Source: Flavobacterium sp. MC2016-06 (GTDB lineage: Bacteria > Bacteroidota > Bacteroidia > Flavobacteriales > Flavobacteriaceae). From it: a stretch of 64,000 bases of DNA. Made by a program: the position numbers and the translations under genes. Each line of letters begins with the position of its first letter. The stretch's first letter is position 1. Below the pieces are notes generated by a model. The model was not told the DNA's origin, made no database searches, and saw nothing but the letters and a program-made list of their open reading frames with translations. Shown piece by piece: positions 4,486 to 17,852 of this stretch. Location of the stretch: positions 62,001 to 126,000 of the forward strand of contig NZ_WMID02000014.1 in the NCBI RefSeq assembly GCF_009711165.2. The letters are read 5' to 3'.

Positions 4486-7400
4486 ATGAGTTTCATAAAC
4501 AGTATTATTAAAGTCTTTGTAGGTGACAAGTCACAGAAAGATGTCAAAGCTTTACAACCTTATTTAAACAAAATTAAAACATTCGAAACTAGCTTAATGA
4601 GTTTGTCTCACGACGAATTAAGAGCTAGAACCGTATTTTTTAAAGAAAAAATAAAAGAAGCTAGAGCTGACAAAGATGCTAAAATTGCTTCGCTTAAAGC
4701 AGAAGTAGAAAACATTGAAGACATCGACAAAAGAGAAGATCTTTATGATGCTATTGATGCTCTTGAAAAAGAAGCTTACGAAATCTCTGAGAAAACTTTA
4801 TTAGAAATTCTTCCAGAAGCTTTTTCTGTTGTTAAAGAAACGTCTCGTCGTTTTAAAGACAATTCTCATATCGAAGTTACTGCAACTCCTAAAGACCGCG
4901 AATTTTCGGCTACTAAATCTTACATCGAAATTGATGGAGAAAAAGCGATTTGGGCTAACAAATGGAATGCTGCAGGTAAAGAAATTACTTGGGACATGAT
5001 TCATTATGATGTTCAATTAATTGGTGGAATGGTTTTGCACGAAGGTAAAGTTGCCGAAATGCAGACAGGTGAAGGTAAAACTTTGGTTGCAACACTTCCA
5101 TTATACTTAAATGCTTTGACAGGAAACGGAGTACACTTAGTAACTGTAAATGATTACTTAGCAAAACGTGATAGTACTTGGAAAGCACCTTTATTCGAAT
5201 TCCACGGTTTAACGGTTGATTGTATCGACAATCACCAGCCAAGTACAGAACAAAGAAAAAAAGCATACGATGCTGATATCACTTACGGAACCAACAACGA
5301 ATTTGGTTTTGACTACTTAAGAGATAACATGGCACATTCGCCAAGCGATCTTGTACAAAGAAAACACAATTATGCAATTGTCGATGAGGTCGATTCTGTA
5401 TTAATTGATGATGCTAGAACACCACTTATTATTTCAGGACCAGTTCCTCAGGGAGATCGTCATGAATTTAATGAATTGAAACCAAAAATCGAAAACCTAG
5501 TTGCACAGCAGCGTCAGTTAGCAAACGGTTTCTTATCAGATGCTAAAAAATTAATCAAAGAAGGAAATACTAAAGAAGGCGGATTCTTATTATTAAGAGC
5601 TTACAGAAGTTTACCAAGAAATAAAGCATTAATTAAATTTTTGAGTGAAGAAGGAATTAAACAATTACTTCAAAAAACCGAAAATCAATACATGCAGGAT
5701 AACAATCGCGAAATGCATAAAGTAGATGAAGCTTTGTATTTTGTAATTGAAGAAAAAAACAATCAAGTAGAATTGACTGATAATGGTATTCAATACCTTT
5801 CAGGAGATACAGATTCAGACTTTTTCGTACTTCCAGACATCGGAACTGAAATTGCTGCTATCGAGAGACAAAAATTAGACAAAGACGCTGAAGCTGAAGC
5901 TAGAGAAAGATTATTCCAAGATTTTGGAGTAAAAAGCGAGCGTATTCATACTTTAACGCAGCTTCTTAAGGCTTACGCTTTATTCGAAAAAGATGTAGAA
6001 TATGTGATCATGGACAACAAAATTATGATTGTCGATGAGCAAACTGGTCGTATTATGGATGGTCGTCGTTATTCTGACGGTTTACACCAAGCGATCGAAG
6101 CTAAAGAAAATGTAAAAATCGAAGCTGCTACACAAACTTTTGCAACTGTTACATTACAGAATTATTTCAGAATGTACAGCAAATTGGGTGGTATGACAGG
6201 TACAGCAGTTACAGAAGCTGGCGAGTTATGGCAGATTTATAAATTAGATGTTGTTGAAATTCCTACTAATCGTGGAATGTTAAGACAAGACAAAGAAGAT
6301 TATATCTACAAAACAACACGTGAGAAATTTAACGCTGTAATTGAAGATGTAACACAATTATCAGCTGCAGGAAGACCAGTACTTATTGGAACAACTTCTG
6401 TAGAGATTTCAGAATTATTAAGCCGAATGTTGAAAATGAGAGGCGTTACACACAACGTCTTGAATGCAAAAATGCACAAACAAGAAGCACAAATTGTAGA
6501 AGAAGCTGGTAAAGCCGGAGTTGTAACTATTGCAACAAATATGGCTGGTCGTGGTACCGATATTAAATTATCTCCAGAAGTAAAAGCTGCAGGAGGTTTA
6601 GCAATCGTTGGTACAGAGCGTCATGATTCTCGTCGTGTAGACAGACAGTTACGTGGTCGTGCAGGACGTCAAGGAGATCCAGGAAGTTCTCAATTTTATG
6701 TATCTCTAGAAGATAACCTAATGCGTTTATTTGGTTCTGAAAGAGTTGCTAAAGTAATGGATAGAATGGGATTACAAGAAGGTGAAGTAATTCAGCATTC
6801 TATGATGACTAAATCTATCGAGCGTGCTCAGAAAAAAGTAGAAGAAAACAACTTTGGTGTTCGTAAACGTTTATTAGAATATGATGACGTTATGAACTCA
6901 CAGCGTGAAGTAGTTTACAAACGTCGTCGTCACGCCTTATTTGGTGAGCGTTTAAAACTAGATATTGCAAACATGCTTTATGATACTTGCGAATTAGTAG
7001 TAAGCCAAACTAAAGGAACTAATGATTTTAAAACATTCGAATTTGATTTAATTCGTTATTTCTCTATCACTTCTCCAATCTCAGAAGCTGATTTTGTAAA
7101 ATTATCAGAAATTGAAATCACAGGAAAAGTATACAAAGAAACATTAGCATTCTATACCGAAAAAACAGAAAGAAGCGCAAGAGAAGCTTTCCCAATTATA
7201 AAAGGAGTTTACGAAGAGCCAAACAATCATTTTGAGCGTATCGTAGTTCCATTTACAGACGGAATCAAAACTTTGAATGTTGTTACAGACTTGAAAAAAG
7301 CGTACGACAGCGAAGGAGCACAATTAATTGCAGATTTTGAGAAAAACATCACATTATCTATTGTTGATGAAGCTTGGAAAAAACACTTACGTAAAATGGA

Positions 7401-7830
7401 CGAATTGAAACAATCTGTTCAATTGGCCGTTCACGAACAAAAAGATCCATTGCTTATCTACAAATTAGAAGCATTTAATTTGTTTAGAGGAATGTTAGAC
7501 AACGTAAACAAAGAAGTTATTTCATTCTTATTTAAAGGTGATTTACCAGCTCAAAACGTGCCTGAAATTCACGAAGCAAGAGAAGTTCGCCAAAAAGAAA
7601 ACTTCAAATTAAGCAAAGACGAAATTGTAAACAGCGAAGATATGAATCGTGAAGCTGGAGAAACACAACAACGTCAAGTTACAGAAACAATCACGAGAGA
7701 TATGCCAAAAATCAATCGTAATGACAACGTAACCGTTCAAGAAGTTGCTTCAGGCAAAACAGAAACAATGAAATACAAAAAAGCAGAAACTTTACTAGCT
7801 TCAGGAGCTTGGGTTATTGTTAAAGAATAA
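4486..7830 (+). CDS. secA: Preprotein translocase ATPase SecA
   Basis: 1114 aa, the long form typical of Bacteroidota. It drives secretory preproteins through SecYEG. The Walker A-like TGEGKT is near residue 195 and the DEAD-type box [17 protein letters not shown] near 300. The [17 protein letters not shown] and [14 protein letters not shown] motifs of the two motor domains and the C-terminal helical scaffold ([13 protein letters not shown]) are all in order. An insertion of about 100 residues follows the DEVD region (near 340-440), as in other Bacteroidota. The C-terminus lacks the zinc-binding Cys tail of proteobacterial SecA. Start ATG at 4486 begins the conserved [19 protein letters not shown]. 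Confidence 0.98.
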
Positions 7831-8017: not shown

Positions 8018-8025
8018 TATTTTTG
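8018..8025 (+). promoter_or_regulatory. -7 box at the head of the metal-acquisition cluster
   Basis: TATTTTTG fits TAnnTTTG and lies 24 bases before the TTG start of the first small Cys protein. I find no clear -33 element, so the promoter may need an activator. Confidence 0.5.
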
Positions 8026-8049: not shown

Positions 8050-8427
8050 TTGAAACGCATTTTCATCATATTTATTTCCTGCATGCTATTAGTTCCCTCT
8101 TTTGGCAGTTTCTTTGTTTACACCTCTTTCAAATTAAATCAAGACGAGATTTCAAAAACGATCTGCGTACAGCGTAAAATGGTTTTTAACTCTTGTAACG
8201 GTCGATGTGAACTTCAAAAAAGTTTAAAAAAATACACCGACAACGAAAAGAAAATGCAAAACAATCTGAAAGAAAAAGCAGAAGTTGTCTACATACAAAA
8301 TACAATTCTAAACCATTTTAAAATAATAGAACCAATCGAATCAAGAGCAAAAAACTTTGCTTCATTCGATGAAAAACCTATTGCCGTTTCGAGTTCTATT
8401 TTTCACCCGCCTTCCTATTTTATATAA
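8050..8427 (+). CDS. Small Cys-motif membrane-anchored protein, copy A
   Basis: 125 aa, TTG start. An N-terminal hydrophobic segment (residues 4-24) acts as an anchor or signal. It is followed by a short motif with Cys39, Cys49 and Cys53 (TICVQRKMVFNSCNGRCELQ), then charged helices. The C-x-G-[KR]-C-x-L-x-K-x-L pattern is one I associate with small Bacteroidota proteins beside metal-uptake genes; metal binding is inferred. A close paralogue (copy B, 11540-11917) heads the second half of the cluster and has the same TTG start and the same GAAACACG(T/C)TTTGAAACG context. The TTG start is favoured because it begins the MKR signal and is conserved in both copies. Confidence 0.75.
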   Translation: MKRIFIIFISCMLLVPSFGSFFVYTSFKLNQDEISKTICVQRKMVFNSCNGRCELQKSLKKYTDNEKKMQNNLKEKAEVVYIQNTILNHFKIIEPIESRAKNFASFDEKPIAVSSSIFHPPSYFI

Positions 8428-8450
8428 TTTTTAATTACAATTTCAATTCC

Positions 8451-8490
8451 CATTGAAATAATATTTCATTGTATCAAAAAACAATGAAAT
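8451..8490 (+). promoter_or_regulatory. Two competing hairpins upstream of the MbnP-like gene
   Basis: CATTGAAAT (8451-8459) can pair with ATTTCATTG (8463-8471), while ATTTCATTGT (8463-8472) can instead pair with ACAATGAAAT (8481-8490). The two stems share their middle arm and exclude each other. There is no T-run, so it is not a simple terminator. It could influence mRNA processing or translation between copy A and the MbnP-like gene. Confidence 0.35.
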
Positions 8491-8534
8491 AGCGTCTACG
8501 CACAAAAAAATTATTATTATATAAAATTCATAAA

Positions 8535-9335
8535 ATGAAAAATACTTTATACAAAGCCCTTACGGTTATTGCATTATCTATCACACTAGTTTCATGTTCA
8601 AATGACGATAACGAAGCAGCAACAGGAAGCGGAAAACTTATATTAGAATTCGATAATGCTTTTGGAGTAAACGATTTGATTTTAAATACACAAGGCAACA
8701 AAACTTCAAACAACGAGATTTTAAAAATCAGTAGTATTAAATACATCATCAGTAATGTTGTTCTAACAAAAGTAGATGGTACGACACTTACATACCCAAA
8801 AAGTAAAAGCTATTTTATTGCTGACGAAGCTTCTGAAGACGGACATGAATTTGAACTTTCGGATATTCCAGCTGGCGATTACGTAAAAGTAAAATTCGGA
8901 ATTGGTGTAGATGAAGACCAATGGAAATTAGGTGCATCTGGACAAGGAGATTTCTTGGCGCAGGCAGACGCCGCAGGCATGTTGTGGTCTTGGGCTGCAG
9001 GTTATAAATTTCTAGCTTTCGAAGGTACTTTTACTTCTCCAACCGTTACTGCAGAAACTCCTTTTATGATCCATACTGGAAAAACGGGAACAGACTACAA
9101 CTATACCGAAGTTACACTCGATTTACCAACCAAAGCATTGGTTCGTACCACAATTACGCCAGAAGTTCATATCATTACAGATCTTTCAAAAATCATTGAC
9201 GGAACCAACAAAATTAAACTCTCAGACAACAACGCAAACGGAATGGGCGCTATGATTATGAGCGGCACCAACCTGCCTTTAATTACTCAAAACGTTGCTG
9301 CAATGTTTAGCGTAGCACACGTACACAACGATTAA
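8535..9335 (+). CDS. MbnP-family periplasmic copper-binding lipoprotein
   Basis: 266 aa. SPII signal with lipidated Cys21 (LVSC). The beta-rich domain matches the MbnP family: an N-terminal LILEFDNAFG strand, the central AAGMLWSWAAGYKFLAFEG segment (Trp151, Trp153), a late PEVHI, and a C-terminal HVHND. In methanotroph MbnP a tryptophan is oxidised to kynurenine by the dihaem enzyme MbnH, and copper then binds. Here the next gene encodes a dihaem protein, so the pair is complete. Its role is probably periplasmic copper capture. The family call is firm; the metal is inferred from the family. Confidence 0.85.
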   Translation: MKNTLYKALTVIALSITLVSCSNDDNEAATGSGKLILEFDNAFGVNDLILNTQGNKTSNNEILKISSIKYIISNVVLTKVDGTTLTYPKSKSYFIADEASEDGHEFELSDIPAGDYVKVKFGIGVDEDQWKLGASGQGDFLAQADAAGMLWSWAAGYKFLAFEGTFTSPTVTAETPFMIHTGKTGTDYNYTEVTLDLPTKALVRTTITPEVHIITDLSKIIDGTNKIKLSDNNANGMGAMIMSGTNLPLITQNVAAMFSVAHVHND

Positions 9336-9380
9336 TTTTATTTTCGGGAGCACAAAAATTCAGTTTCACAAGAACAAATG

Positions 9381-9447
9381 TCCCGCTATCCGCTATATCT
9401 TTTATGCTGAACCCCAGCACAAAAGGATATCGCTTCTATCGGGGCTA
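9381..9447 (-). repeat. TAGCCCCGAT...AGCGGGA element, copy A (short form)
   Basis: In minus-strand orientation it starts TAGCCCCGATAGAAGCGATA, passes through the hairpin CCTTTTGTGCTGG...CAGCATAAAAG, and ends ATAGCGGATAGCGGGA. It lies between the MbnP- and MbnH-like genes. Other copies: 14298-14417, 22587-22717, 36389-36463 and 61347-61415. Confidence 0.8.
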
Positions 9448-9485
9448 AGCCAGAACTTTTGTACTTCTATAAAACATACAACACA

Positions 9486-10526
9486 ATGTTCAAAATAAAA
9501 TATTTTCTATGGGTATTGGCACCATTACTTTTTAGTTGTACAGACCAAGATGATGAATATATAAACATTCCGTTAGAATTTAAAGTTCCATCCAATTTTC
9601 CTGCTTTAGCCTACAATATTGCGCTAAATCCGCCAACGGAAAAAGGATTCGAGCTAGGTAAAAAATTATTTTACGACGGACGTTTGGCTTCAGACGGAGT
9701 AGTTTCCTGCGGATTCTGCCACATACAAGCCAATGCTTTTACCCATCACGGTCACACAGTAAGCCATGGAGTAAACGATGCACAAGGCACGCGAAACACA
9801 CCAGCCATTCAAAATCTGGCGTATCAAACTGTGTTTATGTACGATGGTGCTGCAGAGCATTTAGATTTACAGCCTATAATTCCGCTTACGAGTATTATAG
9901 AAATGAACGGAGATCTAAATGCCATTTTAAAAATGATGAAAACCGATAAAGACTATCAAAAATTATTTGGGCAGGCTTTTGACGATGGCGCAATCACAAC
10001 CGAAAACATGCTCAAAGCACTTTCGCAGTTTATGGTAATGGTTACCTCGTCCAATTCAAGATTTGACAAATACAGACGTAATGAAACTGGAGGAACTTTA
10101 ACAACAGATGAATTAGCTGGTTACGATTTATTTAAATCAAAATGCGCTTCCTGTCATGCAGCAGATTTACAGACAGACAATTCGTTTCGCAACAATGGTT
10201 TAGCAGTAAACCCATTAGTAAATGATGTTGGCCGTTATAAAGTAACAGAACTCGCAAGTGATTATTACAAATTTAAAGTGCCAAGTTTAAGAAATGTTGA
10301 GGTTTCTGGACCATATATGCACGACGGGCGATTTGGAAGTTTAGAAGGTGTTTTAGATCATTATCAAAGTGGTGTTTTAGCCTCAGCAACTCTAGACCCG
10401 ATTTTAAACCAGAACGGGAAATTAGGAATCACACTTTCAGAAACAGATAAAACACAAATAATTGCCTTTTTAAAAACCTTAACAGATAAACAATATTTAA
10501 CTGATAAGCGATTTTCAGAATATTAA
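9486..10526 (+). CDS. Dihaem cytochrome c peroxidase/MauG family protein, probable MbnH
   Basis: 346 aa from the ATG at 9486, which begins a lipoprotein signal (FLWVLAPLLFSC, Cys18). An upstream TTG at 9459 would add nine residues ahead of the signal and is less likely. Two haem c sites are CGFCH (75-79) and CASCH (220-224). The family segments LGKKLFYDGRLASDG, GTRNTPAIQN and FKVPSLRNVEVSGPYMHDG are present. Sequence alone does not separate a peroxidase from MauG/MbnH-type enzymes that oxidise tryptophan. Its place directly after an MbnP-family gene argues for MbnH: modification of MbnP tryptophan before copper binding. Confidence 0.82.
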   Translation: MFKIKYFLWVLAPLLFSCTDQDDEYINIPLEFKVPSNFPALAYNIALNPPTEKGFELGKKLFYDGRLASDGVVSCGFCHIQANAFTHHGHTVSHGVNDAQGTRNTPAIQNLAYQTVFMYDGAAEHLDLQPIIPLTSIIEMNGDLNAILKMMKTDKDYQKLFGQAFDDGAITTENMLKALSQFMVMVTSSNSRFDKYRRNETGGTLTTDELAGYDLFKSKCASCHAADLQTDNSFRNNGLAVNPLVNDVGRYKVTELASDYYKFKVPSLRNVEVSGPYMHDGRFGSLEGVLDHYQSGVLASATLDPILNQNGKLGITLSETDKTQIIAFLKTLTDKQYLTDKRFSEY

Positions 10527-10538
10527 AAATAAAAAAGA

Positions 10539-11498
10539 ATGAAAAAAATAATAGTATTAGCAGCGTTTTTAATTGGTTTTTCAGCCTTTAGTGCTACAGT
10601 AAAAGACAGCATTTCAGCCTTTACCTTTCAGCGTTTAGCAATGTTAGAAGATTTTGACTGCGATGCCTGCGGTTGTTCTGCCAGCGGCGGAAGTATGGGA
10701 TTTGGCTCTATGCTGAATAATAATTTTGTCGGACTTCGTTATTTCAAACAAAGTTATTCAAGCCGCGACGGAATCTTTGCCAATTCACCTTGGATAGACG
10801 AAAACTTCAATACCATTCAAGCTTGGGCTAGAATTCCTGTTACCGAAAAAATCCAGATTTCTGCATTAGTACCGTATCATTTTAACGAAAGAAAACTAAC
10901 TGCAGGAACAGAAAACATTGAAGGTCTCGGTGATATTACTGTAGTAGGATTGTACTCTGTATACCAAACCAAAAAAGACAGTACTTTTTTTACGCATAAA
11001 CTAAATGTAGGAGCAGGTATAAAAATACCAACAGGTAAATTTACCGAAGCCAATAATCTAGGAACTGTAAACCAAAGTTTTCAATTAGGAACAGGAAGCT
11101 GGGATTATCTAGCCGTTACAGAATATGTAATTAAACATAAAAACTTAGGTTTAAACACGACATTAAACTATACGATGAAAACCGAAAACAGCAAAAACTA
11201 TCAATACGGTGATCAATTTAATTATTCAGGAACATTCTTTTATTTATTCGATTTAAAATCAGTACAAATTGTACCACAAGCAGGTTTAGCTGGCGAAGTG
11301 TATCAAACCAACAAACAACACGGATTAGACGTGCCTAATACTGCTGGCGATGTATTGTTTGGAAAATTTGGTATAGAAGCTGGAAAAGATAAATTTTCTA
11401 TTGGCGTAAATGCAATGCTGCCTATCATACAAAACCTATCAAACGGCAACATGGAAGCCAATTACAGATGGAGTGTAAATTTAAATTATACGTTATAA
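10539..11498 (+). CDS. Outer-membrane beta-barrel 'transporter' with CDACGC motif
   Basis: 319 aa. A signal peptide (MKKIIVLAAFLIGFSAFSA) is followed by a Cys cluster at 41-46 (DCDACGCSASGG) and a run of amphipathic strands typical of the phenol_MetA_deg/transporter barrels (IPVTEKIQISALVPYHF, LNVGAGIKIPTGKF), ending NYRWSVNLNYTL. The N-terminal Cys cluster could bind metal on the periplasmic side. It begins 12 bases after the MbnH-like gene, so it is co-transcribed. Role inferred: outer-membrane channel or sensor of the metal system. Confidence 0.72.
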   Translation: MKKIIVLAAFLIGFSAFSATVKDSISAFTFQRLAMLEDFDCDACGCSASGGSMGFGSMLNNNFVGLRYFKQSYSSRDGIFANSPWIDENFNTIQAWARIPVTEKIQISALVPYHFNERKLTAGTENIEGLGDITVVGLYSVYQTKKDSTFFTHKLNVGAGIKIPTGKFTEANNLGTVNQSFQLGTGSWDYLAVTEYVIKHKNLGLNTTLNYTMKTENSKNYQYGDQFNYSGTFFYLFDLKSVQIVPQAGLAGEVYQTNKQHGLDVPNTAGDVLFGKFGIEAGKDKFSIGVNAMLPIIQNLSNGNMEANYRWSVNLNYTL

Positions 11499-11539
11499 AA
11501 CATTAACTCAACAGTTAAAATCCTAAACAGAAACACGCT

Positions 11540-11917
11540 TTGAAACGATTATTAATCTTATTTCTTTCCTGCATGCTATTAGTTCCCTCTTTTGGCAGTT
11601 TCTTTGTTTATACCTCATTTAAATTAAATCAAGAAGAAATTTCAAAAACCATTTGTGTACAGCGTAAAATGGTTTTTAATTCTTGCAATGGTCGTTGTGA
11701 ACTCCAAAAAAGTTTAAAAAAATATACCGACAACGAAAAAAGAATGGAAAACAACCTAAAAGAAAAACTAGAAGTTGTTTACATTCAAAACACAATATTC
11801 AACAATTATCAGTTAATAGCACCAATCGAATCTGGGACAAACCTTTTTGCTCCTTTTGAAGAAAAACCCATTTCGGTTTCAAATTCCACATTTCACCCTC
11901 CATCCTATTTGATATAA
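11540..11917 (+). CDS. Small Cys-motif membrane-anchored protein, copy B
   Basis: 125 aa, TTG start. It is a near-duplicate of copy A (8050-8427). The first 31 residues differ at only about five positions, the Cys39/Cys49/Cys53 motif (SCNGRCELQKSLKKY) is identical, and divergence concentrates in the C-terminal third. It follows the barrel gene by 41 bases and precedes the TonB-dependent receptor. The two copies head the two halves of the cluster, so each may accompany its own set of envelope proteins. Function is unknown; metal handling is inferred. Confidence 0.75.
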   Translation: MKRLLILFLSCMLLVPSFGSFFVYTSFKLNQEEISKTICVQRKMVFNSCNGRCELQKSLKKYTDNEKRMENNLKEKLEVVYIQNTIFNNYQLIAPIESGTNLFAPFEEKPISVSNSTFHPPSYLI

Positions 11918-11927
11918 ATTTTAGTTC

Positions 11928-11957
11928 ACTTTTCAATTCAATTTGAAAGGTTTTTTC
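11928..11957 (+). terminator. Possible attenuating terminator before the receptor gene
   Basis: ACTTTTCAA pairs with TTTGAAAGGT (one G-U) around a short loop and runs into six T. Placed between copy B and the TonB-dependent receptor, it could lower receptor transcription relative to the upstream genes. Confidence 0.5.
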
Positions 11958-12010
11958 TTGGCTTAAAGCCGAAGAATACTTGATACTTTTTAAAATTTAT
12001 ATCATTTAAA

Positions 12011-14170
12011 ATGAAAAAAATATACTTTACCCTATTAATCATAGGGCAATGTGTTTTTGCGCAAAACAAAACTGTGCAGGATACAACCAAATCTCAAGAG
12101 CTTGAAAACATTTTTGTAACTGCCAATCGTACTGCCACTTTACGAAAAGAAACTCCCGTTGCCATTAGCAAAATAACAGCTAAAACCATTAACGAAACCA
12201 AAGCAACTGCAGTTTACGAAATCATCAATAAAACACCTGGAGTATTAATGGTTAATTTAGGAAACGAGCAGCACATGATGTCGATTCGTCAGCCTATGAC
12301 AACCAATGCGTATTATTTATATCTAGAAGACGGATTACCAATTCGTCCAATGGGAATCTTCAATCACAATGCATTATTAGAAATCAATCAATACAATCTG
12401 CAAAGCATTGAAGTTGTAAAAGGTCCTGTTTCGTCTTTGTACGGACCAGAAGCAGTTGGCGGCACCATCAATTTAATTTCGCTAAAACCACCAGTTGATC
12501 CCGAATTTAAATTTGGTGTACAAGGAGATAATTATGGTTATAGAAGATTTCAGGCAGCAGGCGGTGCAACAATCGGAAAAGTCGGTTTTCATATCGCAGG
12601 AATTTCAAGTCTACAGACCAACGGCTGGATGGCGTATTCAGATTACAACAAAGATAATCTAAATGCTAGAATAGATTATAACATCTCGCCTTCTACCCGA
12701 TTAATTAGCAATACCATGTACGGAAAATATTATTCTGACATGAGTGGAACGGTTAACGAAGATGCGTTTAACAACAGAACCTACAAAAGCACTTCTGATT
12801 TTACCTATAGAAAATCGGATGCTTTAAGAACTAGATTAACGTTGGAGCACGATTGGAATGATAAATCAAGCAGTTATATTACTGGATATTTACGTGATAA
12901 TAAATTAGGACAAAATCCTTCATACGGAATCAAATGGAGTGCAACTGTAAATCCAACAACGGCAACTGGTCAAGTAAATTCAAATAATTTCAAAAGTTAC
13001 GGAGCGATCGGACAGCATACTCAGAAATTCGACTTTTTAAACACCAAAATTGTAGCAGGCGCCTTATACGATTATTCTCCCGTAACCTATTGGGCTTATG
13101 TAATAGATTTAAAAGCCAATTTAAATCCGGGAGAAGCAGGAAAACAAACCGTAGACTCTTATGAAATTACTGCCGAACATCCAGACTCAAAACTAGCAGA
13201 TTATACCGCAGATATATTCAATACAGCAGGTTATGCACAAGTGAGTTTCAATCCAATCGAAAAATTAATCGTAACCGTTGGCGGCCGTTACGACAACATG
13301 AAAGTGAATTATGACAATGCATTAGACCAATCTTCAGGAAGTAAAATCTACGACAAAGTAACTTTTAAAGCGGGAGCTAATTACAATCCGTTTGAATACG
13401 CTGGATTTTACGGCAACTATTCACAAGGTTTTGCGCCTCCGGGAATTACTTCAATTTTTACAGCAAAACCTGGAACTGGAGGTACAACTGGCGTTCCTGC
13501 AGATTTTTATTATAATCTTAAACCAGCAACTTTCAATAATTATGAAATTGGCGGATGGCTTTCTTTCCTAGAAAATAAATTAAACTTCGATTACGCCATA
13601 TATTTTATGGAAGGTCAAAATGAGTTATTAAGCATCAAACTCCCAGATAATTCTACCGATTATCGTTCGGCTGGAGAAACTCGTCACAAAGGAATCGAGT
13701 TTGGCGCTACCTACAAACCATCAAAACAATTCAACATTCGCGTAGGCGGCACTTATGCACAACATACGTATATTGATTTTAAACTTTCAGACAAACCGTC
13801 AGATCCAGTTCAAAACCTAGACGGTAAAGAAATGCCAGCAGCGCCAAAATGGTCTGGAAATTCAGAAATAAGTTATTATCCTAATTGGCTTCCCAACTTA
13901 AGAACTTCAATCGAATGGCAGCTTGTTGGAAGTTATTACCAAGACCAGATTAATACTGTAAAATACAGTGGTTATAATTTGTTTAACGCCAGAATCGGTT
14001 ATCAATGGAGAAAAATTGAGATTTACGGAAACGTACTCAATCTTACCGACAAATTATACGCCTATAATGTTTCAAGAGCCAATACAACTGGCGCGCAACC
14101 TACGTACACGGCTGCAGCACCAAGAACATTTGTGTTCGGAATTCAATATAATTTTTCATTAAAAAAGTAA
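12011..14170 (+). CDS. TonB-dependent outer-membrane receptor
   Basis: 719 aa. Signal peptide (MKKIYFTLLIIGQCVFA); plug domain from about residue 35 (ETPVAISKITA, VYEIINKTPGVLM, then IEVVKGPVSSLYGPEAVGGTINLIS); a 22-strand barrel ending NLTDKLYAYNVSRAN and a final aromatic strand FGIQYNFSLKK. There is no carboxypeptidase-regulatory N-terminal domain, so it is of the siderophore/metal class rather than SusC. Cargo is unknown. Together with the MbnP/MbnH pair upstream and the PepSY protein downstream, a metal or metallophore is likely. Confidence 0.92.
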   Translation: MKKIYFTLLIIGQCVFAQNKTVQDTTKSQELENIFVTANRTATLRKETPVAISKITAKTINETKATAVYEIINKTPGVLMVNLGNEQHMMSIRQPMTTNAYYLYLEDGLPIRPMGIFNHNALLEINQYNLQSIEVVKGPVSSLYGPEAVGGTINLISLKPPVDPEFKFGVQGDNYGYRRFQAAGGATIGKVGFHIAGISSLQTNGWMAYSDYNKDNLNARIDYNISPSTRLISNTMYGKYYSDMSGTVNEDAFNNRTYKSTSDFTYRKSDALRTRLTLEHDWNDKSSSYITGYLRDNKLGQNPSYGIKWSATVNPTTATGQVNSNNFKSYGAIGQHTQKFDFLNTKIVAGALYDYSPVTYWAYVIDLKANLNPGEAGKQTVDSYEITAEHPDSKLADYTADIFNTAGYAQVSFNPIEKLIVTVGGRYDNMKVNYDNALDQSSGSKIYDKVTFKAGANYNPFEYAGFYGNYSQGFAPPGITSIFTAKPGTGGTTGVPADFYYNLKPATFNNYEIGGWLSFLENKLNFDYAIYFMEGQNELLSIKLPDNSTDYRSAGETRHKGIEFGATYKPSKQFNIRVGGTYAQHTYIDFKLSDKPSDPVQNLDGKEMPAAPKWSGNSEISYYPNWLPNLRTSIEWQLVGSYYQDQINTVKYSGYNLFNARIGYQWRKIEIYGNVLNLTDKLYAYNVSRANTTGAQPTYTAAAPRTFVFGIQYNFSLKK

Positions 14171-14177
14171 TATAAAA

Positions 14178-14276
14178 TTTAGCCACAGATTAAAATGATT
14201 AGCACAGATTAGAAAAATCATGAAAGTAAAACTTAAAAAAAAATCATTTCAAATCCTTTAAATCTGTGGCTAAAAA
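14178..14276. repeat. Intergenic inverted repeat, GCCACAGATT family
   Basis: TTTAGCCACAGATTAAA faces TTTAAATCTGTGGCTAAA about 65 bases later. Related repeats are at 57861-58020 and 58291-58417. Confidence 0.7.
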
Positions 14277-14297
14277 ATAATAAGTATTAGAAGCTAA

Positions 14298-14417
14298 TCC
14301 CGCTTTCGGCTATATCTTTTTTGGGCAAAGAAAAATTGCCCAAAAAAGGATACCGCCTCAAATAAAATTCACTGAACTCCGATTAAAAATTAATATTATG
14401 TGAAGTAATCGGGGCTA
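14298..14417 (-). repeat. TAGCCCCGAT...AGCGGGA element, copy B (long form)
   Basis: Minus-strand orientation. It begins TAGCCCCGATTACTTCAC, carries the extra block GGAGTTCAGTGAATT, then a hairpin built on CCTTTTTTGGGC...GCCCAAAAAA, and ends AGCCGAAAGCGGGA. The extra block is shared with the copy at 22587-22717. Confidence 0.8.
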
Positions 14418-14430
14418 AAAAGACCTAACA

Positions 14431-16032
14431 ATGAGTAAAGAAATAAATAGAAAAAAAGCTAAAAAAGATTCCAAAATCATCAAAAAAATTAAGCAACACA
14501 TGTACAAATGGCATCGGGTTATTGGTTTAATTACCATTATTTCTGTCATTTTCTGGACATTATCTGGTTTGATGCATCCTTTTATGGCGCATTTCTTTAA
14601 ACCCGAAATTGCACACGAAAAACTCGAACAGCAAATTATTGATAAAAATCAGCTGCATTATTCGATACAGGAAGTTTTACAAAAAAACGAATTAACGCAA
14701 TTCAAAAATTTCCGAATCGTTTCTTTTAATAATGCGACTTATTATCAAGTAAAAACTATCATTGGCCAATTATGGTATTTTGATGCTGCAACTGCCAAAC
14801 AACTAGAAAACGGAGATCAGAAATATGCCGAATGGCTTTCGCGATATTTTCTAGACGATCAAAAAAGCACCATAAAAAAGAGTGAAATTGTAACCGAATT
14901 TACAGCGCAATACAAATATGTAAACCGCTATTTACCTGTTTACAAAATATCTTTTGATCGTCCTGATGCGATGCAGGTTTATGTAGAAACTTCTTCGAGT
15001 AAATTAGCTACTTACAATCCAACTTCAAGACAAGCCTTTATTTGGTTTTTCGACACTTTCCATAATTGGTCGTTTATAGATGCGATAACCAACAACAGCA
15101 TCCGAATTATTACGATGATTTTTCTTTTGTCTATAATTGGATTTTCTGCGTTGAGCGGTATTTTAATCTATGGTTTACTGTGGAAACAATTCAAAAAAAC
15201 AGACAGTGTTCAACCTAAAAAAGGATTACGAAAATACCACCGTCAAATTGGGATTTGGGTTTCGCTTTTTACTTTAACTTTTGCTTTTAGCGGCGGTTAT
15301 CACGCCACTACAAAATGGACGCCGTATACTTTATCGCAAATGATTTACGAACCAACGTTTGCAACCAAAGAAATTCCTGTTGCTAATACTAATCTTAATT
15401 TAGATTGGAATCGTTTTCAAAACATTGGCATTATTACACTAAACGACACAACTTATTTTCGTTGTCAATTGGTTGAACAAGAAACTAAAAAATTCAAAAA
15501 ACCAAAAGCAGATCCAAATTTAAAATGGAACAAAAAAGAAGATCTAAAATCTGAAGTAATTTACATTAATGCAACAACAAATAAAATTGTACCCAATATT
15601 GATCTAGAATATGCAGAATTTCTAGCGTATTATTTTACAGACGGCGCTCCAAAAGCGGCTTGCTGCGAAATGGTCGATACTTCTGATGATGAACCGCAAC
15701 CGTCTCTAGAAAATGTAAAACTATTAGAATCTAAAGTTTTAACAGATTTTGAAAGCCGTGAATATGGTTTTGTCAACAAAAGACTTCCGGTAATAAAACT
15801 GGCATACGACACTCCAGAAAAAACAACTTATTTTATAGAAACAGCAACATCAAGATTGGCTGCAGTTATTAAAAACTCAGATAAAGTAGAAGGTTATTCT
15901 TTTGCCATTCTGCATAAATTCTTATTTATGGATTGGGCAGGAAAAAATATCCGAGATTTAACAATGGTTATAGCTGCATTAACTATTCTTGTGGTTAGCA
16001 TTTTAGGTTTTATTCTCTTTTTGAGGAAATAA
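14431..16032 (+). CDS. PepSY-domain inner-membrane protein
   Basis: 533 aa. Membrane segments lie near residues 27-48, 225-250, 272-292 and 505-530, with two large periplasmic PepSY-like regions between them. The first helix carries HRVIGLITIISVIFWTLSG and the third HRQIGIWVSLFTLTFAFSGG, the His-containing helices of PepSY-associated proteins. Such proteins sit next to TonB-dependent receptors for siderophores and are thought to reduce the imported metal. A CC pair occurs in the second periplasmic loop (AACCEM). It lies downstream of the receptor gene beyond repeat elements and is probably part of the same system. Confidence 0.8.
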   Translation: MSKEINRKKAKKDSKIIKKIKQHMYKWHRVIGLITIISVIFWTLSGLMHPFMAHFFKPEIAHEKLEQQIIDKNQLHYSIQEVLQKNELTQFKNFRIVSFNNATYYQVKTIIGQLWYFDAATAKQLENGDQKYAEWLSRYFLDDQKSTIKKSEIVTEFTAQYKYVNRYLPVYKISFDRPDAMQVYVETSSSKLATYNPTSRQAFIWFFDTFHNWSFIDAITNNSIRIITMIFLLSIIGFSALSGILIYGLLWKQFKKTDSVQPKKGLRKYHRQIGIWVSLFTLTFAFSGGYHATTKWTPYTLSQMIYEPTFATKEIPVANTNLNLDWNRFQNIGIITLNDTTYFRCQLVEQETKKFKKPKADPNLKWNKKEDLKSEVIYINATTNKIVPNIDLEYAEFLAYYFTDGAPKAACCEMVDTSDDEPQPSLENVKLLESKVLTDFESREYGFVNKRLPVIKLAYDTPEKTTYFIETATSRLAAVIKNSDKVEGYSFAILHKFLFMDWAGKNIRDLTMVIAALTILVVSILGFILFLRK

Positions 16033-16314: not shown

Positions 16315-16950
16315 TTGAAAAAGTACCTAAAGCCTTACTTACCGCTTCTACTGACGCTCTGTTTTAGTTATTTTTTTATATTGATGATCAAAATTACCTG
16401 TCAATATATTCCATTCAAAAACGATGCGGCATTTCTTCAAATAAAGCAGACCGAAGTTTTAGAGATTCCGTTTTACATTGTATTTTTTTACATTCATGTG
16501 TATACTGCTATTTTCGTTTTACTAGCTGGATTTACTCAATTTAGCTCAACTTTATTAAGGAAACAGCCCAGTATTCATAGAAATATTGGAAAATTTTATG
16601 TCTTTACAGTTCTCTTTTTAAGTGCTCCATCGGGCTTATTTATTGGTGTTTTTGCCAATGGAGGTTTTTATTCCAAAATATCTTTTGTAACACTTTCTAT
16701 CTTGTGGTTTTATTTTACGCTGAAAGGATTTTTACACATTAAAAACAAAAATATACTGCTTCACAAAGCTTTTATGCTGCGAAGTTTTGCTTTAACATTT
16801 TCTGCTATAACCTTACGCTTTTGGAAGGTTATTCTTATATATTTGTTTCACCCTTCGCCAATGGACGTCTATCAGATTATTGCTTGGCTGGGGTGGATTC
16901 CAAACCTATTAATCGCTGAATATTACATTTATAACCAATCAAAAAAATGA
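16315..16950 (+). CDS. DUF2306 family membrane protein
   Basis: 211 aa with six or seven hydrophobic segments. HRNIGKFYVFTVLFLSAPSG and LLHKAFMLRSFALTFSAITLR give the conserved His/Arg pattern of DUF2306 (PF10067) membrane proteins, whose function is unknown. The TTG at 16315 gives the expected MKKYLKPYLPLLL start; the next Met (residue 24) would remove most of the first helix. The stop overlaps the next start (ATGA), so the two genes are translationally coupled. Confidence 0.72.
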   Translation: MKKYLKPYLPLLLTLCFSYFFILMIKITCQYIPFKNDAAFLQIKQTEVLEIPFYIVFFYIHVYTAIFVLLAGFTQFSSTLLRKQPSIHRNIGKFYVFTVLFLSAPSGLFIGVFANGGFYSKISFVTLSILWFYFTLKGFLHIKNKNILLHKAFMLRSFALTFSAITLRFWKVILIYLFHPSPMDVYQIIAWLGWIPNLLIAEYYIYNQSKK

Positions 16951-17852
16951 AAAAACTCGTTTATTTTTTATTTGCCGTTTTACTTTTTTCTTGTAATTCT
17001 AAAGACAAAAACAACTCTAATAACGATGCTCTTACAGCTCAAAACAAAGAAATAAGAACAGACTTATATGGCTCATGGGTTGGGGATTTTCTTGCTGAAG
17101 AAAGAAATGAAGAAACAGAATCATCTGAGAACACAACAAATAAGATCAATATCTTAATTAAAAAAATAACAGCCTCTGAAGTTACAGGACAAAGTATTGT
17201 AGCTGGAAACAGCAGACCTCTTAAAGGTTTTATGAAAAAAATAGGAAACACGCTGTCTTTCACACTCAAAGAACCTGGAGATGACAAAAATGATGGTGTT
17301 TTTACTTTTGAAATAAAAAATGATACGCTAGTAGGAACTTGGACAGCTTATAATACTAAAAAAGCAGTAACCAAAAGAAGTTTTGAACTCTCTAAAAAAG
17401 AGTTTCAATATGATCCGACAGTTATGCTTTCTGAAGATAAATATGTTGACTGGCAAAATCCGAAAGTAGAAAAAGAAAAAAATGGGATACTAGCAAGTGA
17501 TACTATTCCGGAAGACAATGAAGAATATGATGAGGCTAGCGGTATAACTTTGTACAGACAAGCTTCTGAAAGTGTATATCAAATCAATTCATCAACAGAA
17601 AAACTAAAAGAAAGCCAATTAAAGAATCTAAAGAAACTCGATTTAGAAATTCTGCGAAATACCATTTTTGCCAGACATGGTCTTACTTTTAAAACCAAAA
17701 CGGTACGTCAATTTTTTGATTTTGTGGATTGGTACATTCCAGTTTCAACCAATGTTGACGATAAATTAACTGAAACAGAAAAACAAAATATTGTACTATT
17801 AAAACGTTTTGAAAAATACGCTACTGATAATTATGATTCTTTTGGAAGGTAA
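16947..17852 (+). CDS. Lipoprotein with C-terminal YARHG domain
   Basis: 301 aa. An SPII signal (FLFAVLLFSC, Cys16) is followed by an N-terminal beta domain (GSWVGDFLAEE ... GNTLSFTLKEPGDD ... GTWTAYNTKK), which looks like a small lipocalin/DUF-type barrel. The C-terminus has LDLEILRNTIFARHGLTFKT, the YARHG extracellular domain signature. The function is unknown; it is probably surface- or periplasm-facing. It overlaps the DUF2306 gene by four bases. Confidence 0.78.
   Translation: MKKLVYFLFAVLLFSCNSKDKNNSNNDALTAQNKEIRTDLYGSWVGDFLAEERNEETESSENTTNKINILIKKITASEVTGQSIVAGNSRPLKGFMKKIGNTLSFTLKEPGDDKNDGVFTFEIKNDTLVGTWTAYNTKKAVTKRSFELSKKEFQYDPTVMLSEDKYVDWQNPKVEKEKNGILASDTIPEDNEEYDEASGITLYRQASESVYQINSSTEKLKESQLKNLKKLDLEILRNTIFARHGLTFKTKTVRQFFDFVDWYIPVSTNVDDKLTETEKQNIVLLKRFEKYATDNYDSFGR

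Follow-up and report, generated by a model that had tools for sequence, protein, structure and literature searches.

Two copper-responsive leader peptides, CruR and CutF, and the MbnP-MbnH pair of methanotrophs are the closest described parallels to the locus considered here, which lies at 8050 to 16032 of a 64,000-nucleotide stretch of Flavobacterium sp. MC2016-06 (contig NZ_WMID02000014.1, positions 62,001 to 126,000), referred to as a whole as the window. Sources are cited "in part" where a portion of their text was available. CruR of Bordetella carries DUF2946, a CXXC motif and an RAPP sequence three residues before its end, with 45 residues between; its gene comes first, followed by those for a TonB receptor and a PepSY_TM protein, and some of its homologues precede MbnPH-like genes; copper relieves its arrest, and Rho stops transcription (PMC9426467, in part). 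CrtA, the receptor of the cruR-crtA-crpH operon of Bordetella pertussis, imports copper chelates (PMC12914433, in part), and CrpH, the PepSY_TM protein of the same operon, supports haem-copper oxidases (PMC13038864, in part). CutF of Rhodobacter capsulatus has a CxxxC motif, a proline end and a stem-loop over the next start; CutF-like proteins number 5,334, with Bacteroidota contributing 19%, or 40% after normalising (PMC9973294, in part). As far as its available portion goes, a 2025 survey of RAPP and RGPP endings places none in Bacteroidota before the copper-related class of genes and finds the TonB class throughout Gram-negatives (PMC12992588, in part).

The locus is filled by seven plus-strand open reading frames (ORFs), which run from 5' to 3' as smC1, MbnP, an MbnH-like dihaem protein, a Cys-tagged barrel, smC2, a TonB receptor and a PepSY_TM protein (Table 1). 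The duplicated small protein, a predicted leader peptide that we call smC, is the most informative part of this arrangement, and the MbnPH part belongs to a known kind. To our knowledge, little is known of copper control in Bacteroidota; a literature search returned no such Bacteroidota family beyond the CutF-like list, which does not prove its absence in print. We consider it probable that the locus is a two-module copper region in which each module is headed by an smC acting as a nascent-chain copper sensor.

The smC family

The two smC copies are identical in 102 of 125 residues (82%) and in 316 of 378 bases, and Pfam and NCBIfam place neither in a family at an expectation value (E) of 1e-3 or below. 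Profile searches found smC twice and MbnP once in the 6.17-Mb host genome, and smC in 158 of 395 Bacteroidota genomes. The 64 distinct smC sequences have in common an N-terminal hydrophobic stretch, a Cys, a CxxxC motif that is mostly CNGKC or CNGRC, and, one to eight residues from the C-terminus, a Pro-Pro that usually belongs to FHPP or FRPP. His or Arg directly precedes the Pro-Pro in 52 of the 64, and Phe stands two places before it in 51. All 64 combine CxxxC with Pro-Pro within the last 14 residues, at a spacing of 66.3 +/- 1.8 residues (range 61-70), and 10 of the 335 other ORFs between 80 and 200 aa long have a comparable Pro-Pro end. Among Flavobacterium smC the spacing is 66 in every case (93/93). 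The stretch between the two motifs is variable in sequence and nearly fixed in length.

The Pro-Pro end is not an artefact of the search, because it is present in 73 of the 74 distinct frames recovered by queries that lacked the C-terminus, against 50 of 1176 background frames. A further 16 loci outside Flavobacterium contributed 17 smC, all with this ending. Cys39, Cys49 and Cys53 are invariant in 30 aligned smC, and the AlphaFold2 model has an N-terminal helix and no predicted structure after residue 71 (predicted local distance difference test, pLDDT, 67.5). None of the 30 matched DUF2946 (PF11162) at E of 10 or below, a search in which the HMMER filters drop most matches above 0.1; the host genome has no DUF2946 match, and none of the 64 distinct smC ends in RAPP or RGPP. 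The features found in smC, namely an N-terminal hydrophobic helix, a Cys motif, a terminal Pro-Pro at fixed spacing and a position ahead of copper genes, are those of the CruR/CutF-type layout.

Genes headed by smC

The genes behind smC were tallied in 80 loci, 40 from the smC list and 40 from the MbnP list with some overlap, together with the window. A next gene on the same strand was present for 59 of the 64 smC and was MbnP in 25 cases, a TonB receptor in 17, the barrel in four, MbnH in one, another smC in one and something else in 11; these counts are not an unbiased sample, because half of the loci were picked for MbnP. Proximity was measured separately between 118 MbnP places (three rows under the family cut-off left out) and 150 smC places, the latter from 110 of the 158 genomes. 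At least 44 of the 118 MbnP places have an smC within 1.5 kb upstream, where 0.02 would be expected by chance if genomes are taken as 4 Mb.

Other genes with a connection to copper recur behind smC. SCO1, YHS and superoxide dismutase genes follow it in locus L132, SCO1 and PCuAC lie behind an smC-following receptor in L190, PepSY_TM does so in L043 and L195 and a CusB-like protein in L093, YtkA-like proteins are found behind smC in L091, L096, L189 and L199, and cytochrome oxidase subunit I lies further downstream in L097. Twenty receptors standing first or second behind smC were scanned, picked for diversity as 10 of 26 smC-adjacent receptors (without the close relatives of the window's) and 10 from the 16 extra loci. 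TIGR01778, the OprC/NosA TonB-copper family, was the best family in 14 of them, never above its cut-off. It was best in one of 10 receptor-like proteins not behind smC, two of which had no family at all, and this single case (L135) lies near an MbnH-like gene.

Several variants of this arrangement were seen. A protein of 264-307 aa stands between smC and a TonB-copper-like receptor in L046 (8802-9725), L086-L088, L091 and L096; it is YtkA-like in L091 and L096 and has no family match in L046. A tandem smC pair precedes one receptor in L220, L263 and L200, a PF13557 protein lies directly 3' of smC in two related loci (L191, L196), and a 622-aa protein near smC in L051 has no family match. MbnP genes that lack smC were also inspected for other proline-ended Cys leaders. 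Three of 29 have one, as do 10 of 275 background genes, and the leader in L050, which counts among the three, is itself an smC missed in gene calling.

The best 80 of 84 smC matches gave 77 loci carrying the nearest smC (75 Flavobacterium, one [Flexibacter] sp. and one Flavobacteriaceae bacterium), and with the window these make 78, seen to at most 8 kb on each side and in some cases cut by contig ends. The commonest arrangement, in 44, is smC-receptor-PepSY; the two modules follow one another as in the window in 15, smC-MbnP-MbnH-barrel is found in 14, and five are otherwise arranged. The receptor half occurs without the MbnP half in 46 (44 with a single smC, two with tandem smC), MbnP occurs without the receptor in 16, and one is different. 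Because the halves so often occur apart, the locus is to be regarded as two separable modules, smC1-MbnP-MbnH-barrel and smC2-receptor-PepSY_TM, and their common predicted switch argues for a shared signal. An earlier note on this DNA, made from the letters alone, had listed an MbnP, a dihaem protein, a barrel with CDACGC, a TonB receptor, a PepSY protein and two small Cys proteins, all seven of which are present, and had joined them into one complete route for copper. Copper remains supported; the single route is better read as two modules, since the receptor half stands without the MbnP half in 46 of 78 loci. The small Cys proteins, mentioned there as lying among the other genes, turn out to be more than minor members, as each heads one half and is leader-peptide-like.

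Promoter and leader RNA

The element TAnnTTTG, which we take to be the Bacteroidota-type promoter consensus, lies within 150 nt upstream of 28 of the 64 smC genes, with 7.85 expected from shuffles. It is found before four of 60 MbnP genes, four of 70 MbnH genes, none of 30 barrel genes and four of 44 TonB-dependent receptor genes. Because smC2 has a close upstream gene and no such element within 300 nt upstream, transcription of the second half probably continues from the first, with smC2 as a second gate.

In both leaders of the window the final codons and stop of smC pair without interruption with bases just before the next start, in 12 and 15 pairs with hairpins inside, and for each leader none of 100 shuffles gave a helix as long. 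A usable pair of smC and next gene was available for 58 of the 64 distinct smC, the rest being dropped by gap, strand or length. Across these the pairing of smC end with next start averages 10.1 pairs against 4.8 when shuffled, and it is not raised in 100 control gene pairs (5.15 against 5.09). An uninterrupted helix at p of 0.01 or below is present in 13 of the 58 leaders and in three of 60 controls. In several lineages such a helix occupies a similar position with a different sequence. The effect is strong in the 93 Flavobacterium leaders: a set of 62 averages 17.6 pairs (shuffled, 4.3) and a set of 31 averages 12.1 (shuffled, 4.1). Among 10 leaders, five of 15 pairs changed on both sides (8 of 500 shuffles), with a score of 0.185 against at most 0.071 for slid controls. 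Intrinsic terminators behind smC are as frequent as in shuffles (4/64, 4.15 expected), leaving simple intrinsic attenuation unsupported.

MbnP and the dihaem protein

The 266-aa product behind smC1 had been assigned to the MbnP family, and this is borne out by Pfam PF20243 (144.7 bits, E 4e-42, cut-off 27). Its Met149, Trp151, Trp153 and His180 have counterparts in 7l6g, a solved relative that matches weakly (E 0.061), and are kept in 55, 58, 56 and 59 of 60 Bacteroidota MbnP rows (57 distinct); the window itself and a handful of overlapping loci are counted in these and the other conservation figures for MbnP, MbnH, receptor and PepSY. The two Trp singled out in the earlier note are therefore the WxW pair, and we take the aligned Met, WxW Trps and His to be the copper-site residues of MbnP. 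Manesis et al. (2021, PNAS) are said to have described this copper site and the conversion of its first Trp to kynurenine. MbnP is present in 97 of 395 Bacteroidota genomes (96 above the family cut-off), and MbnH lies directly 3' of it in 56 of 57 distinct cases.

The dihaem protein scores 164 bits against Pfam CCP_MauG and 211.4 bits against the NCBIfam MbnH family TIGR04039, the top of six families listed, with the MauG family at 181.8. Its best solved relative is 6e1c, "Di-heme enzyme" (E 1.2e-39), which is presumably MbnH, followed by a cytochrome c551 peroxidase (E 3.5e-37). Tyr293 aligns with a Tyr of 6e1c and is Tyr in 62 of 70 rows; the Met of CcpA falls beside a gap. The MauG/MbnH type has Tyr instead of Met near the second haem, and Tyr293 appears compatible with it. 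On these scores the protein is narrowly nearest to MbnH. The proposed test of both proteins by family profile gave a divided answer, PF20243 being passed and TIGR04039 ranking first while the cut-offs of TIGR04039 and TIGR04052 were left unreached, and 6e1c leads the CcpA-type peroxidases by a small margin.

The absence of a methanobactin precursor had led the earlier note to a foreign or unidentified cargo. None was seen at the locus, where no precursor search was made; a foreign cargo is not required, because a gene for an MbnB-family enzyme exists elsewhere in the same genome. This gene, for an MbnB/TglH/ChrH enzyme (PF05114, 357 bits), lies on another contig (L174, 6719-9059) and adjoins a Cys-rich 195-aa ORF and a DUF2063 gene, possibly a metal-peptide cluster.

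Barrel, receptor and PepSY_TM protein

The barrel, without a Pfam or NCBIfam family, is modelled as a beta-barrel of 14 strand segments (pLDDT 80.4; below 50 in residues 18-52, which include the Cys tag), with Cys41 and Cys44 invariant across 29 sequences. The receptor matches Pfam Plug and TonB_dep_Rec above cut-off, and its plug is rich in Met and His, as in other smC-following receptors placed before PepSY genes. No chain named CrtA or BfrG was among its matches in the Protein Data Bank (PDB), and no direct comparison with the CrtA sequence was made. Family profiles left copper or iron undecided for this receptor, TonB-siderophore being best yet under its cut-off and TIGR01778 missing. The PepSY_TM protein scores 60.9 bits (cut-off 28.8), and its six His residues (His28, 49, 211, 270, 291 and 495) are kept in nine of nine rows; the profile match and the conserved His are traits looked for in PepSY_TM proteins of the CrpH/FoxB sort.

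Table 1. Features of the locus in window coordinates
Feature	Coordinates	Strand	Basis or detail
Promoter element TATTTTTG, TAnnTTTG type	8018-8025	+	Enrichment before smC genes
smC1, 125 aa from a TTG start; predicted leader peptide responsive to copper	8050-8427	+	CxxxC 49-53, Pro-Pro 120-121
RNA helix 1, 5' arm, over final codons and stop of smC1	8417-8428	+	12 pairs with 8516-8527
RNA helix 1, 3' arm, ends at -8 from MbnP ATG	8516-8527	+	Pairs with 8417-8428
MbnP-family lipoprotein	8535-9335	+	PF20243; Met149, Trp151, Trp153, His180
MbnH-like dihaem protein	9486-10526	+	Haem motifs CGFCH, CASCH; Tyr293
Outer-membrane barrel, N-terminal Cys tag CDACGC in low-confidence stretch	10539-11498	+	Structure model
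smC2, second predicted leader peptide, layout as smC1	11540-11917	+	CxxxC and Pro-Pro
RNA helix 2, 5' arm, over final codons and stop of smC2	11910-11924	+	15 pairs with 11990-12004
RNA helix 2, 3' arm, ends at -7 from receptor ATG	11990-12004	+	Pairs with 11910-11924
TonB-dependent receptor, plug with GNEQHMMSIRQP and FNHNAL	12011-14170	+	Plug, TonB_dep_Rec
PepSY_TM protein	14431-16032	+	PepSY_TM; His28, 49, 211, 270, 291, 495

Just upstream of smC1 lies secA (4486-7830, with SecA domains by profile), and a gene of 1113-1114 aa occupies its place in six further loci (L082-L085, L089 and L126; not profiled). A predicted arrest-type peptide after secA is the reverse of the secM-secA order. On the 3' side, a DUF2306 membrane protein and a YARHG-domain protein (16315-17852) have no sign of belonging to the locus.

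A predicted copper switch

Gene content and families, conserved motifs and spacing, the enrichment of promoter element and helix, and the copper neighbours can all be read from the DNA. From them we infer the export of smC, its copper binding, its pausing and the direction of that pausing, as well as the MbnH chemistry and the cargo. In the proposed mechanism smC would be made and fed through the Sec channel until the ribosome pauses at FHPP, which lies four residues from the end, at which point CxxxC, 66 residues earlier, would just have reached the periplasm. With copper scarce the pause would last and the ribosome would hinder the helix, so that MbnP-MbnH or receptor-PepSY is made; with copper on CxxxC the pause would end, smC would be finished and discarded, and the helix would close, turning the downstream genes down. 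Rho might act as well, as for CruR. The receptor would import a copper chelate that PepSY_TM reduces or whose delivery it supports, and MbnP would hold Cu(I) once MbnH had turned Trp151 into kynurenine. A copper reading of the locus is likely, and a copper role is well supported because MbnP has WxW, Met and His, MbnH stands behind MbnP, smC has copper neighbours and the receptor pair parallels crtA-crpH.

A number of observations weigh against this account. F[HR]PP differs from RAPP and RGPP, the ends shown to arrest, and the proline end of CutF did not arrest by itself (PMC9973294, in part). The window's MbnP falls short of TIGR04052, MbnP_like_WxW (38.7 bits, cut-off 140), the dihaem protein does not reach the TIGR04039 cut-off of 362.85 bits, and the receptor has TonB-siderophore as its best NCBIfam (171.8 bits, under the cut-off of 223.5), with TIGR01778 not among its 23 families at E of 1e-3 or below. 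With smC directly upstream of 28 of 57 distinct MbnP, half are without it; an AraC-type regulator (L100), a methyltransferase (L037), DJ-1 (L101) and a Crp-type regulator (L201) are non-copper genes near smC. Nor is smC always clearly first: a gene on the same strand precedes it in 48 of 64 cases and lies within 50 nt in 12, among them the window's smC2. No helix at p of 0.05 or below was found in 42 of 58 leaders. In 55 leaders the first of three helices is 90.4% paired and both sides change in only two of its 15 pairs; over all three there are 50 two-sided cells, against 25 in shuffles and up to 53 in slid controls. Covariation support among close relatives is weak, and because the 55-leader result is no better than slid controls, the RNA claim rests on the shuffle and control-pair tests. 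By the +15 rule for the ribosome footprint, a ribosome halted at Pro-Pro would overlap the first 5' arm by only some 6 nt and the second by only some 3 nt.

Could smC instead simply bind or chaperone copper in the periplasm as an ordinary membrane-anchored protein, and the locus be one integrated copper route? The N-terminal helix of the model, the three invariant Cys and the neighbouring copper genes would all suit such a protein. It would leave unexplained why a C-terminal half that is poorly conserved and has no predicted structure keeps a near-fixed length to Pro-Pro, and why the RNA pairs into the next start region; an integrated route sits poorly with halves that occur apart, and we regard this alternative as unlikely. 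An arrest peptide of the SecM/VemP sort, monitoring export or redox state and not copper, would likewise have a signal or anchor helix and a proline end, and smC1 does lie right behind secA, with the similar-sized gene in the six other loci. Yet secA is upstream of smC and not downstream, copper genes follow smC in many lineages and CxxxC is invariant, so that we think this very improbable.

The receptor-PepSY half could also be an iron-siderophore uptake pair with a substrate unrelated to the MbnP half, as the family ranking of the receptor and its solved relatives, siderophore receptors for the most part, would have it. However, this pair stands behind an smC that is 82% identical to the one before MbnP, 14 of 20 scanned smC-led receptors are TonB-copper-like, and the copper receptor CrtA likewise occurs with PepSY_TM and a leader peptide (PMC12914433, in part); a siderophore pair therefore seems quite unlikely. 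As for the switch with copper as its signal, we lean slightly towards its fullest form, in which smC is a Bacteroidota sensor without detectable kinship to DUF2946, with its own F[HR]PP arrest motif and stop-to-start helix. Copper acquisition in roughly 40% of the sampled genomes would then be under its control, and it would swap places with true CruR peptides before MbnP.

Were this so, smC would have solved the problem that CruR solves, either by convergence or after far-reaching divergence, and would mark copper genes genome-wide, among them receptors, SCO1, PCuAC and MbnPH. The widespread MbnP-MbnH pair would gain a regulatory setting, copper acquisition, with kynurenine-type copper proteins under ribosome-based copper control, and a ribosome-read copper sensor would be open to direct reporter testing.

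Comparison with known systems

The MbnPH part resembles the methanotroph MbnP-MbnH pair in its gene order and in a WxW accompanied by Met and His, and differs from it in the extra Cys-tagged barrel, in scores under the NCBIfam cut-offs and in that no methanobactin genes were seen at the locus. The window's MbnP has a single Cys, that of the lipobox, against the four Cys in the name of 7l6g. The barrel shares its fold with the FapF and COG4313 channels 5o67 and 4rl8 (Foldseek E 1e-10 and 1e-9) and departs from them in its 12-15% identity and its N-terminal CDxCGC tag. As far as the available portions of the sources go, the receptor-PepSY pair mirrors crtA-crpH of Bordetella (PMC12914433 and PMC13038864, both in part).

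Like the leader of cruR-crtA-crpH, smC is a small Cys-motif peptide with a near-terminal Pro-Pro at near-fixed spacing, ahead of a TonB receptor and PepSY_TM; unlike CruR, it has F[HR]PP for RAPP, CxxxC for CXXC, a spacing of about 66 for 45, no DUF2946 match, an A+T-rich intergenic region and a Bacteroidota host. With cutF-cutO it shares CxxxC, a signal-like N-terminus, a proline end and a stem-loop between leader and next start. The direction would be opposite, as CutF turns a multicopper oxidase on with copper and the acquisition genes behind smC would go off (PMC9973294, in part). DUF2946 was found in 11 of the 395 Bacteroidota genomes (five above cut-off), against smC in 158 of the same 395. 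In one distant member (L179) a DUF2946 peptide ending in RGPP (1444-1860) stands directly before MbnP (2117 onward), in the place of smC, and similar peptides with a RAPP or RGPP end lie ahead of TonB receptors in L176, L178 and L181. The locus, with smC in 158 genomes and DUF2946 in 11, suggests that many Bacteroidota use an ending other than RAPP or RGPP. Without the DUF2946 and RAPP of CruR, smC would still fit the CruR/CutF way of working, and it looks like a peptide of that kind with a different ending.

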